Notes under the pieces: generated by a model
What the model was told of the DNA's origin: nothing
The model's input: the letters and a program-made list of their open reading frames with translations, nothing else
Database searches by the model: none
Translations under genes and position numbers: made by a program
Shown: positions 50,107-54,146 of the stretch, piece after piece
Layout of the letters: each line of letters starts with the position of its first letter
Position numbering within the stretch: the stretch's first letter is position 1
NCBI GenBank assembly: GCA_902570035.1
Contig: CACFWO010000002.1
Coordinates: forward strand, 127,054-191,053
Length of the DNA: 64,000 nt
Direction of reading: 5' to 3'
Source: an uncultured SAR86 cluster bacterium
Lineage (GTDB): Bacteria; Pseudomonadota; Gammaproteobacteria; Magnimaribacterales; AG-339-G14

Positions 50107-50514
50107 ATGGAATACTTCATTCAATTCGTAATTGAAAATTGGTACATCGAGGTACCTCTTATTATATCTATAGCAGCTTTAATATTGTTTGAAAAATCAA
50201 AAAGAGCTTCGAAAATCGAACCGCAAGCAGCAACCATTATGATAAATAAACAAAAAGCTAGAGTTTTAGATGTCAGAAGTGCCATTGAATTTAGCAAAGG
50301 AACAATTCCCAATGCAGTTAACGTTAACAAAGATAACGCTTCTTGCATCAGTGCTTTAAAAGGAGATTTAGATAACCCGGTAATATTTGTTTGTAATCAA
50401 GGCACTGATTCTTCAAAAATTGCATCCAGCCTTAAAAAAGATTTGAAAGAGGTTTATGTGATTAGCGGAGGTATTAACGCATGGAAAAGCGAGGGCTTTC
50501 CTATTGTGAATTAG
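50107..50514 (+). CDS. Membrane-anchored rhodanese-like protein
   Basis: N-terminal TM; ARVLDVRSAIEFSKGTIPNAVNV; VFVCNQGTDSSKIA; GGINAWKSEGFPI. Confidence 0.92.
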   Translation: MEYFIQFVIENWYIEVPLIISIAALILFEKSKRASKIEPQAATIMINKQKARVLDVRSAIEFSKGTIPNAVNVNKDNASCISALKGDLDNPVIFVCNQGTDSSKIASSLKKDLKEVYVISGGINAWKSEGFPIVN

Positions 50515-51285
50515 TCAAATATCTAGCTCTTGTATTTTTCTAGCTAAGGTATTTCTCCCCCAGCCTAACAACTTAGCAGCTTCAGATTTATTTCCTCTAG
50601 TGGACTTCAAAGCCACATTAATCATTGTTCTTTCAAAAATTGGGGTAGCTACATTTAATAGATGATCTTCCCCCTTGGATAATTGTTTTTCTGCCCAACT
50701 TTCAAGAATCTCTTCCCAATTAACCTCATCTTTTTGAGCTTGAACAAACAATTGTTTATGCAGATCGCTCTCTTTAAGATCTTGTCCAGGAGAAAGAACA
50801 AACATTAACTTTCCGATAGCATTAAAAAGATCTTGCATTGCCTCTGATCTATCTACCGTTTTTTCCTTATCAGGTGTGATTTCTTCAATTTGTTTATTCG
50901 AAACAGTGACAGATTTTCTTTCACTTATTACTTTATCTATTTTTGATATTGCAGTGTGAATATCAAAAGGTTTTGCTAGGTAATCCCATGCTCCATTATC
51001 AAAGGCTTCTACTGTGGTTTCTAAGTCTGAAAAAGCAGTCATCATTATGATGGGTATATTTGGATAATCATTTTTAAAAGTATCAAGAAGATCCATTCCA
51101 TCTCTACCAGGCATGCGCATATCGGTAAGAACAATATTAGGTGATTCAATATCTAATTGATTCACTACTTCATTTCCATCTTCGAAAGTGGAAACTTCAA
51201 AACCTGCTTCTGATAATCCTTTCTCTAGAACCCATCTTATGGATTCATCATCATCAGCAACCCATATTTTTTTATCCTGCCTCAT
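50515..51285 (-). CDS. NtrC-family response regulator lacking the central AAA+/sigma54-interaction domain
   Basis: Receiver (VADDDESIRWVLEKGL, LTDMRMPGRDG, LAKPFDI) then EAMQDLFNAIGKL joined directly to MFVLSPGQDLKESDL...C-terminal NKSEAAKLLGWGRNTLARKIQEL. No GESGTGKE, GAFTGA or arginine-finger segments. Confidence 0.93.
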   Translation of the reverse strand: MRQDKKIWVADDDESIRWVLEKGLSEAGFEVSTFEDGNEVVNQLDIESPNIVLTDMRMPGRDGMDLLDTFKNDYPNIPIIMMTAFSDLETTVEAFDNGAWDYLAKPFDIHTAISKIDKVISERKSVTVSNKQIEEITPDKEKTVDRSEAMQDLFNAIGKLMFVLSPGQDLKESDLHKQLFVQAQKDEVNWEEILESWAEKQLSKGEDHLLNVATPIFERTMINVALKSTRGNKSEAAKLLGWGRNTLARKIQELDI

Positions 51286-52385
51286 GCTGATTCAAAATTT
51301 TCTTTCTTAGACACTTCCTTTTGATCTTCATCTTCAATATTCAGCGGTAAATAGATAGAAAATTTTGTACCGGAAGAGGAGCTCTCACACTCTATTGCTC
51401 CTCCATGTTGACTGACTATTCCTTGAGCAATTGAGAGCCCTAAACCAGATTTAATTTCTTTACTGGAAACAAGAGGAAAAAATATTGAGTCAATTATTTC
51501 CTCAGGAATACCGGGACCATTATCAATAAAAGATATCTCACAAGTTGTTTTGTGGAATGTTCTATTGATAAAAGTTCCAAAATGTATTCTGGTTTTAAGA
51601 GAAATTTTATTTTCTCTATCCGTAGTTTTCATGGCATCAACTGAATTATTTGCCAAGTTATAAAGGACCTGAGTTATGAGCGATGAATCAATGTTCAATT
51701 CAGGCAAAGTAGGATCATAATCTTTTGTAATCTGGATTTTATCAGTGGAAATACTTCCTAGATATTCTGGAATAGTTTCAAGAATTGCATGAATGTTTGC
51801 TTCTGTTGGTTGGATCTCAAACTGTCTATCTAAAATTTTTGTAACTAAATCACTTAATCTTTCAGTTTCTTTTAATATGATTCTTGTATAGTCCTTGAGC
51901 TCATCATTTTTTAATTTCGGCTCAAGAAGTTGAGTAGCACCTTTAATGCCACTAAGAGGATTTCTTATTTCATGAGCCAAACCCTTAGAAAAAGTAGCTG
52001 TGACAGTCGAGATAGTTTGTCTTTTCATCCTATTTAACTCTTTTGTTTGATTAGCATCATAAAATTCATAAAGAAGATATTTTTTTGAATCTATCTCAAA
52101 GAAATTAATTTCATAGGTGCAAACTTTCTCAAGACCTCCTTTTAAATAAATTTTTCGTCTGGATTTTTCTAAAGAATCCTTTTCTGCAAGAAGCCTTTTT
52201 AGTTCAAAAATATTGCTAGGGTTTTCTGAAAATATATTTTCAATTCCTTTACCTTCTCTGTTTTTTGAATCAAACAATAAAAAAGCTTCTGCCTCGTTGC
52301 TTGCAAAAACAAAATTTAAGCTTTCGTCAACAACCAAAACTTTGGAAGAAATATTTTCCATAGTTTTTTTAAGCAGTTTCTTCAT
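51282..52385 (-). CDS. glnL: NtrB (GlnL) nitrogen-regulation sensor histidine kinase
   Basis: PAS-like N-terminus, KGLAHEIRNPLSGIKGATQLLEPKL H-box, NNSVDAM, DNGPGIPEEI, GLGLSIAQGIVSQHGG. Confidence 0.94.
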   Translation of the reverse strand: MKKLLKKTMENISSKVLVVDESLNFVFASNEAEAFLLFDSKNREGKGIENIFSENPSNIFELKRLLAEKDSLEKSRRKIYLKGGLEKVCTYEINFFEIDSKKYLLYEFYDANQTKELNRMKRQTISTVTATFSKGLAHEIRNPLSGIKGATQLLEPKLKNDELKDYTRIILKETERLSDLVTKILDRQFEIQPTEANIHAILETIPEYLGSISTDKIQITKDYDPTLPELNIDSSLITQVLYNLANNSVDAMKTTDRENKISLKTRIHFGTFINRTFHKTTCEISFIDNGPGIPEEIIDSIFFPLVSSKEIKSGLGLSIAQGIVSQHGGAIECESSSSGTKFSIYLPLNIEDEDQKEVSKKENFESA

Positions 52386-52433
52386 ATATTTAATTCCTAT
52401 TTAAAACTTTGAAATTAATCTCAGACAAATACC

Positions 52434-52455
52434 TTTTGATCGGCTTTTGATCGGC
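52434..52455. repeat. Two tandem copies of an 11-bp unit
   Basis: TTTTGATCGGC at 52434-52444 and 52445-52455, followed by TTTTA. Confidence 0.8.
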
Positions 52456-52498
52456 TTTTAATCTTTGATTAACTTCAAAGTTACTGTCACTTCCTCTG

Positions 52499-52514
52499 CG
52501 AAGTAATTACTTCG
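52499..52514. repeat. Perfect 16-bp palindrome spanning the glnA stop codon
   Basis: CGAAGTAATTACTTCG; the taa stop (reverse of 52507-52509) lies inside. Confidence 0.7.
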
Positions 52515-53487
52515 TTAGAGTGCCGACAATATGAGCAAGTATTTTGTATGGATCAGCATTTGAAGCAGGTCTTCTATCTTCAAGATAACCATTCCAATCG
52601 TGCTCAACAGTGTAAACAGGTATACGAATACTTGCCCCTCTATCGCTTACACCATAAGAGAATTTTTCAATGCTTTGTGTTTCGTGAAGACCAGTAAGCC
52701 TCATATCGTTATCAGAACCATAAGATGCAATTCCTTCTTCATGTACTTCACCAAGTTTTTCGCAATAAGATGTGAAAAGCTCTTCAGAACCATTTGTACG
52801 CATCTCTTCATTCGAAAAATTAGAGTGCATTCCGGATCCATTCCAGTCTCCTGTTTTTGGCTTTGGATGGATATTCACTCCAACGCCAAATTCCTCAGCA
52901 ACCTTAAAAAGCAGGTACCGACTCATCCATAAATCATCAGCTGCTTTTATTCCTTTACCGAAACATTGATATTCCCATTGACCCAAAGCTACCTCTGCAT
53001 TTGTTCCTGTTAGGGTAATACCAATATCTAGACAAGCTTGTAAATGTGCATCTGATATTTCTCTTCCAACCACATTGCCAGCTCCCACACCACAATAATA
53101 TTCACCTTGTTCTCGTGGAGTTCCATCTTCCCATCCTAAAGGTTCACCAGTAGTAGGATCTGTGAAGAAAAACTCTTGCTCAAAACCAAACCACCATTCA
53201 TCTGTAACAACTTCCTCAGCAGCAGCTCTGAAGTTAGAAGGATGTGTCGTATGATTTGCAGCATGAACTTGAGTTAGCACAAAATCATGACCGTTAGGAT
53301 TTGAATAAGTTTGAACAGGAAGTAGAAGACAGTCTGAGCTCCCACCTTCTGCTTGTAGTGTTGAAGAACCATCAAATGACCAATCTGGTGGTGTGTCTTC
53401 ATCAGTAGCTTTTACTTTACTTCGCATGTTGGCTTCAGGTTTGTAACCATCTAACCAAATGTATTCATATGTTTTATAATCTGACAT
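52507..53487 (-). CDS. Glutamine synthetase type II (GSII, eukaryotic-like)
   Basis: 326 aa; YEYIWLDGYKPEANMRSKVK, PPDWSFDGSSTLQAEGGSSDCLLLPV, WFGFEQEFFFTD, GQWEYQCFGKGIKAADDLWMSRYLL, SDRGASIRIPV. Confidence 0.94.
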   Translation of the reverse strand: MSDYKTYEYIWLDGYKPEANMRSKVKATDEDTPPDWSFDGSSTLQAEGGSSDCLLLPVQTYSNPNGHDFVLTQVHAANHTTHPSNFRAAAEEVVTDEWWFGFEQEFFFTDPTTGEPLGWEDGTPREQGEYYCGVGAGNVVGREISDAHLQACLDIGITLTGTNAEVALGQWEYQCFGKGIKAADDLWMSRYLLFKVAEEFGVGVNIHPKPKTGDWNGSGMHSNFSNEEMRTNGSEELFTSYCEKLGEVHEEGIASYGSDNDMRLTGLHETQSIEKFSYGVSDRGASIRIPVYTVEHDWNGYLEDRRPASNADPYKILAHIVGTLTK

Positions 53488-53511
53488 TTTTTAACTCCTT
53501 AAATGTTTAAC

Positions 53512-53528
53512 TGAGCTAAATTAGCAGA
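53512..53528. promoter_or_regulatory. Candidate regulator site 1 upstream of glutamine synthetase
   Basis: TGAGCTAAATTAGCAGA; core GCTAAATTAG (53515-53524). Confidence 0.4.
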
Positions 53529-53554
53529 ATCAGTGATTATTAATAGTGCAATAA

Positions 53555-53571
53555 TGTGCTAAATTAGTACA
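53555..53571. promoter_or_regulatory. Candidate regulator (NtrC-like) site 2 upstream of glutamine synthetase
   Basis: TGTGCTAAATTAGTACA; imperfect dyad matching 9 of 12 defined positions of TGCACY-N5-RGTGCA (consensus from memory); core repeated 43 bp away. Confidence 0.45.
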
Positions 53572-53585
53572 TATTTTGCCCTATT

Positions 53586-54146
53586 TCAAAGCAAAAAGTC
53601 AAAAATTTGCTCTATTTTATCTTCAAAATTCTCGAATTGATGATTTCCCTTTTTAGAAAAATAAATTTTGCTTTCTTTAAATTTTTTTAAGGAAAGTCTT
53701 TGATCAAGAACTTCGTCACCCTCCTGTGCAAGAAGAAAATGATTCTTAGGTGATGTAAGCATGTGTGTAGAATATTTTTTTAAATTTTCATAATCATTCA
53801 TAGAGAATGTATCCTTTTTCCCGTTATTAAAGTTTTCATAACTGCCAACGATATTAAGCATGCTGGGTAAATGATCATCCACTACTGGGTTTATATGAAC
53901 TCCTTTCAAATTATATTTATTAGCAAAATAACAAGAATAAAATCCTCCCATTGAACTGCCAATAAAAGCAATAATTTCTTTTTCAGATATCAACATTTCA
54001 ATGAGGTTAACAACTTTAGCTGTTGATAAAGGCAAGTCTGGAATTAAAATTTTATCGCCAATACCTTTGTTGTTAAGATATTTTTTACAAAGCTGAGCTT
54101 TTGAAGAAGAACTAGAGCTATTGAAACCGTGCAGGTAAATTATCAC
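53586..54146 (-). CDS. YqiA-like esterase
   Basis: MIIYLHGFNSSSSSSKAQ; IAFIGSSMGGFYSCYFANKY; next to DUF1249 gene. Confidence 0.88.
   Translation of the reverse strand: MIIYLHGFNSSSSSSKAQLCKKYLNNKGIGDKILIPDLPLSTAKVVNLIEMLISEKEIIAFIGSSMGGFYSCYFANKYNLKGVHINPVVDDHLPSMLNIVGSYENFNNGKKDTFSMNDYENLKKYSTHMLTSPKNHFLLAQEGDEVLDQRLSLKKFKESKIYFSKKGNHQFENFEDKIEQIFDFLL

Follow-up and report, generated by a model that had tools for sequence, protein, structure and literature searches.

A short NtrC without the AAA+ ATPase domain is conserved in a SAR86 genus in which sigma54 was not found

Results and Discussion

The glnA-ntrB-ntrC locus of an uncultured SAR86 bacterium encodes a 256-aa NtrC from which the whole AAA+ ATPase domain has been deleted in frame, and this short form recurs across the genus of the bacterium (here called g1). 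We conclude that the short NtrC is probably a functional, naturally minimised regulator of ammonium assimilation that is controlled by NtrB and independent of sigma54. The gene lies in a stretch of 64,000 nucleotides (the window) from a draft SAR86 genome of 1.14 Mb in 18 contigs that is 87.5% complete. An original prediction, made from the letters of the window, had proposed this ORF beside an intact NtrB, and the ORF is real.

51285..50515, minus strand: ntrC, short form, an AAA+-less NtrC of 256 aa (ORF, profile matches)
50926..51273, minus strand: receiver domain, residues 5-120 (Pfam, invariant columns, AF2)
51121-51123, minus strand: phospho-acceptor D55 of the receiver
50725..50925, minus strand: linker, residues 121-187, including what is left of the two ends of the AAA+ domain (AF2)
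50805..50806, minus strand: deletion junction, residue 160/161, frame kept (alignment to 465-aa orthologues)
50518..50724, minus strand: NtrC C-terminal dimerisation/Fis-type DNA-binding domain, residues 188-256 (HTH_8, 1ntc, AF2)
51282..52385, minus strand: ntrB, intact sensor kinase (NR(II)), HisKA and HATPase_c present
52507..53487, minus strand: glnA, 326-aa glutamine synthetase directly upstream of ntrB, a likely target of the short NtrC

The short NtrC and its locus

The short ntrC ORF begins with ATG, lies on the minus strand, and shares 4 bp with the end of ntrB. Pfam places Response_reg at residues 7-115 (1.5e-28) and HTH_8/Fis at residues 217-253 (2.7e-14) of the 256-aa protein; Sigma54_activat is absent, and nothing significant was found between the receiver and the HTH. 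Residues D11-D13, D55, T83, and K105 are invariant in an alignment of short and full-length NtrC. The ntrC profile TIGR01818 aligns in two separate stretches with a score of 230.9 bits (E 2.6e-68), and the full-length cut-off of 558.6 bits is not reached because the middle of the protein is missing. Compared to 465-aa orthologues, the protein has a single gap of 209 residues (465-256 = 209) directly after AMQDLFNAIGKL(160). This alignment confirms the junction that had been proposed at 50805/50806 and corrects the loss that had been put at about 230 residues. When the whole class was searched with a profile, most NtrC matches in other genomes broke off at profile position 160-161, an independent mark of the same junction.

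The C-terminal half is that of NtrC and not of another family, as had been claimed: residues 189-255 match the NtrC DNA-binding domain of PDB 1ntc (5.7e-15), and the half is 54-61% identical to sister-genus NtrC. In the AF2 model, pLDDT is about 71-90 per block in the receiver, 85-94 from residue 190, and <50 over most of residues 125-187, where the linker is predicted to be largely unstructured. A fold search of the PDB with this model returned receivers and NtrC-family proteins and nothing beyond the sequence matches. The protein has the features of an NtrC orthologue, namely an NtrC-type receiver with the phospho-acceptor Asp, a C-terminal Fis HTH domain, and the ntrB/glnA locus. Those of a sigma54 activator (bacterial enhancer-binding protein) are absent, in that there is no AAA+ domain with Walker A/B and GAFTGA and sigma54 was not found in the genome.

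NtrB scores 236 bits against an NR(II) profile cut-off of 240. The glnA product is presumably a GSII-type enzyme; it is a short 326-aa form (window 52507-53487) with a partial Pfam match to Gln-synt_C (1.1e-16). Two PII genes are present in the genome, one of them beside amtB. The order yqiA-glnA-ntrB-ntrC-(rhodanese)-gpmA is common to g1 and the sister genera g2, g3, and g4, which carry a full 465-aa NtrC at the same locus.

Sigma54 and its loss in SAR86

A survey of RpoN and NtrC across the order took in 204 genomes. RpoN (in most cases a frame of 413-461 aa) and NtrC are both full in families f2 and f3, and family f1, to which g1 belongs, keeps NtrC and has no full RpoN in any of 40 genomes. 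Sigma54_CBD was found in 0/40 f1 genomes and Sigma54_DBD in 0/9 g1 genomes, all of them drafts, with three of the g1 genomes 93-94% complete; control genomes and other SAR86 families gave sigma54 matches in the same searches. Together with the missing AAA+ domain, these counts support the earlier claim that the protein cannot be a sigma54 activator, and the search for rpoN in related genomes that had been suggested with that claim found no full sigma54 in the 40 f1 genomes but did find it in other SAR86 families. Both RpoN and NtrC are missing from f2/g6 (G041-G050) and f4/g22, an apparent co-loss, unlike the situation in NtrC-keeping f1.

In a tree of GlnA and NtrB, g1 is sister to (g4,(g2,g3)). 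Genomes of g2 and g3 (L080-L088, L023) carry a gene of 75-80 aa between lptB and mgtE that encodes the RpoN box (the sigma54 C-terminal HTH) alone, and no sigma54 core-binding domain was found in the genomes that carry it. This gene occupies exactly the site of full rpoN in an f2 genome (L092), and its dN/dS of 0.03-0.14 indicates purifying selection. In g1, the lptB-mgtE gap is 11 bp and the RpoN box is gone; mgtE was not found in g4 genomes, and the comparison of the rpoN locus within f1 covers g1, g2, and g3. The NtrC loop is GAFTGA in every g2/g3 sequence examined and GAFKGA in every g4 one, and the AAA+ domain is deleted in g1. Within f1, GAFTGA is thus kept only by the RpoN-box genera g2 and g3, a correlation drawn from no more than two independent box losses. 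NtrC of g4 (L016-L021, L067-L071) is full length, with intact Walker A and Walker B and GAFKGA, in genomes in which neither sigma54 nor an RpoN box was found, and is probably an ATPase-bearing NtrC that acts without sigma54. A second, more divergent NtrC-like protein of 504 aa is encoded in one g4 genome (G024:C39:9317-10711) and may be contamination, of which this genome has 3%.

A speculative account, which we consider rather doubtful as a whole, joins these observations. Sigma54 would have been dismantled in f1 in steps that each still worked, beginning with ancestral shrinkage to a stand-alone RpoN-box protein that may still cooperate with the GAFTGA-bearing AAA+ NtrC in g2/g3. In genera without the box, the GAFTGA loop would have mutated to GAFKGA (g4) or the whole ATPase would have been deleted (g1), and the minimal NtrC that remained in g1 would drive housekeeping promoters. 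If this account were true, the RpoN-box protein and AAA+ NtrC of g2/g3 would represent activation without normal sigma54.

Predicted sites upstream of glnA and glnK-amtB

53577..53593: NtrC-like site 1 at glnA, degenerate, TGCTTTGAAATAGGGCA (7/10)
53555..53571: NtrC-like middle site at glnA, TGTACTAATTTAGCACA (7/10), 22 bp from site 1
53534..53550: NtrC-like site 2 at glnA, TGCACTATTAATAATCA (7/10; left half perfect), 21 bp beyond the middle site
53518..53526, minus strand: extended -10-like element TGCTAATTT, TAnnnT hexamer 10 nt past site 2

Among the 59 ORF upstream regions in the window, that of glnA has the most NtrC-like sites (three; Markov P 0.003). The glnA promoters of g2-g4 have two NtrC sites 44 bp apart that match at 7-9/10 positions (8-9/10 in most promoters), and 0/2000 randomised sequences per genome contained a pair as good. 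Those of g1 have three weaker sites (7/10) 21-22 bp apart, which could reflect relaxed binding, and in site 2 the left half is kept and the right half, nearer the -10 element, has decayed. The extended -10-like pattern TG-N-TAnnnT is present in 17/17 f1 glnA promoters examined, where its hexamer always lies 10 nt past NtrC site 2, and a good -24/-12 match is absent from every f1 glnA promoter. In 5/6 sampled f2 genomes, a -24/-12 element (e.g., TGGCATAATTTTTGCA and TGGCACATAAATTGCT) lies 50-58 bp before the glnA start codon, and upstream of it are NtrC palindromes, TGCAC-N7-GTGCA, which are perfect in two genomes; no -24/-12 element was found at glnA in two sampled f3 genomes. A generic sigma70 promoter scan of 50400-53700 gave 7 matches, fewer than shuffled sequences (12.1), and was uninformative; the promoter assignment therefore rests on comparative alignment.

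The candidate NtrC site upstream of glnK-amtB is TGCACTAATTTAGTTCA. A near-consensus NtrC palindrome lies 50-52 nt before glnK in 8/9 g1 genomes and was not found in the remaining one (G009) at the stringency of the search. A search for the pattern TGCACTAWWWTAGTGCA that allowed up to 2 mismatches gave a single occurrence in each of 8/9 g1 genomes, always with 1 mismatch and always before glnK; 0.05 occurrences were expected per genome, and the reversed-pattern control gave 0. The palindrome and TAACAT, the candidate -10 element, are conserved 20 nt apart, and much of the spacer and upstream DNA diverges. Elements of the -24/-12 type precede glnK in two RpoN-bearing genomes, G073 of f2 and G177 of f3.

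At glnA, the predicted sites would have their centres near -75, -53, and -31, where either sign of regulation is possible. At glnK-amtB, the predicted site centre near -41 would be a class II activator position, which makes activation there more likely than repression. The short NtrC could instead be a pure repressor that blocks RNA polymerase at glnA, and possibly at glnK, with phosphorylation by NtrB tuning the occlusion. Enteric NtrC represses the sigma70 promoter glnAp1, which offers a parallel, and site 2 would span about -39 to -23 of the proposed glnA promoter. However, the position of the glnK-amtB site and its fixed 20-nt spacing to the candidate -10 element are activator-like, and the half of the g1 glnA site 2 that has decayed is the one nearest the -10 element. 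We regard a purely repressing short NtrC as possible, but the less likely reading.

Conservation of the short form in the genus

The 256-aa form is present in 7/9 species genomes of g1 (the two in which it was not detected are 60% and 71% complete), where the proteins are 92-98% identical and the genes have no internal stop. It also occurs in six SAR86 records (AG-914-F13, AH-736-O06, AG-453-B11, AG-915-K19, AG-911-D02, and AG-337-I17), some of them on long contigs (757,879 and 634,277 bp). In a class-wide search in which 256 of 369 genomes matched, no other 256-aa NtrC form was seen among the matches listed (the best, in about 155 places), which included a few shorter frames (225-329 aa). Within g1, the same short architecture is found in related genomes, where the original prediction had proposed to look for it. 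A full-length ntrC at this locus in close relatives had been named as evidence that would speak against the prediction; the sister genera g2-g4 do carry one, but in g1 itself the gene is short wherever it was found.

Selection on the gene is strongly purifying by the Nei-Gojobori method, with dN/dS of 0.03-0.05 across short ntrC and 0.01-0.04 in the C-terminal domain. These values bear on whether NtrC became jobless after the loss of sigma54 and the 256-aa form is an in-frame product of decay, as the RpoN-less lineages f2/g6 and f4/g22, which have no NtrC at all, might suggest. Yet dN/dS of about 0.03 and the lack of stops in seven genomes, the invariance of the phosphorylation residues and the HTH, and the retention of the DNA sites all stand against decay. 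The substitution pattern strongly disfavours a pseudogene, and we reject this reading as very improbable.

More improbable still is a split NtrC, with the AAA+ part encoded at another locus and acting in trans. Relocation of a 209-aa module is conceivable, but Sigma54_activat matches in the genus reach at most 27.8 bits (27.6 in the source genome of the window), all in one 756-aa frame, compared to about 235 bits for real sister-genus NtrC. No stand-alone Sigma54_activat domain was found in g1, and the split gene was rejected. Fusion of the two ends of a longer gene by assembly or binning, for which the draft state of the source genome gives an opening, has a negligible chance and was rejected, since the same architecture is common to separately assembled genomes of several species (7/9 g1 genomes and the six records), including the 757,879- and 634,277-bp contigs.

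Proposed mode of action

We favor a functional short NtrC that works with the housekeeping polymerase. The original prediction had proposed that the protein is probably an NtrB-controlled regulator of sigma70-type promoters. In agreement with this proposal, NtrB is intact, the phosphorylation residues are invariant, dN/dS is about 0.03, an extended -10-like element stands at glnA in place of -24/-12, and the glnK-amtB palindrome is conserved. In the mechanism that we suggest, g1 has lost the whole sigma54 system, from rpoN and the -24/-12 promoters to the AAA+ domain of NtrC. Controlled by PII, NtrB would phosphorylate D55 of the short NtrC. A dimer held together by the C-terminal domain would then bind the ancestral palindromes before glnK-amtB and glnA. 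Once bound, the protein would regulate sigma70-type promoters through direct contact or through occlusion, and no ATP-driven remodelling would be involved. Because the protein and its sites are conserved, NtrB is intact, and sigma54 is gone, the short NtrC probably acts on ordinary RNA polymerase as a simple switch.

Among sigma54 enhancer-binding proteins NtrC is the textbook case, with an ATPase that is regarded as indispensable. To our knowledge, the NtrC proteins that work with sigma70 all keep the ATPase. A genus-wide, strongly conserved NtrC that has no ATPase, stands beside an intact NtrB, keeps its targets, and has outlived sigma54 and its promoters offers a natural test both of the role of the ATPase and of the transfer of a regulon from sigma54 to sigma70. 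Because SAR86 is abundant in the ocean, the short NtrC of g1 also bears on nitrogen sensing in streamlined bacteria. A search of the open literature, which left most subscription papers outside its coverage, found no report of NtrC or rpoN in SAR86 or of an AAA+-less NtrC.

Comparison with known systems

The short protein resembles NtrC, or NR(I) (TIGR01818), in its receiver, its DNA-binding domain, its NtrB partner, its glnA-adjoining locus, and its target sites, and differs from it in lacking the whole AAA+ ATPase and in occurring where sigma54 was not found. Regulators of the RegA/PrrA/ActR type consist of a receiver and a Fis-type HTH and have no AAA+ domain, an architecture that the g1 short NtrC now resembles. 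Membership in this group was rejected, as the RegA profile NF033791 matches the receiver alone (residues 4-115) with 64.9 bits against a cut-off of 250. Since the profile matches only the receiver and the protein descends from NtrC, the likeness to RegA is convergent.

Caulobacter NtrC has no GAFTGA and regulates sigma70-type promoters, and it needs an AAA+ domain with intact Walker A and B residues (PMC10274813). It is a precedent for sigma54-independent NtrC and, unlike the g1 form, still needs AAA+. Removal of its residues 159-363, an engineered deletion to which the natural one of SAR86 g1 is nearly equal in extent, abolished growth on ammonium (PMC10274813). By analogy, this failure argues against our model, as it indicates that an NtrC need not work without that region. 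The other precedent, Rhodobacter capsulatus NtrC, had been cited in the original prediction as a sigma54-independent NtrC that keeps its ATPase domain, and the comparison is apt. In PMC10274813, this protein is cited as regulating without sigma54, with the housekeeping polymerase, and is described as lacking only the L1/GAFTGA loop, with AAA+ retained and ATP binding essential. On that description, the g1 short NtrC is like R. capsulatus NtrC in its independence from sigma54 and unlike it in that the AAA+ domain of the R. capsulatus protein stays.
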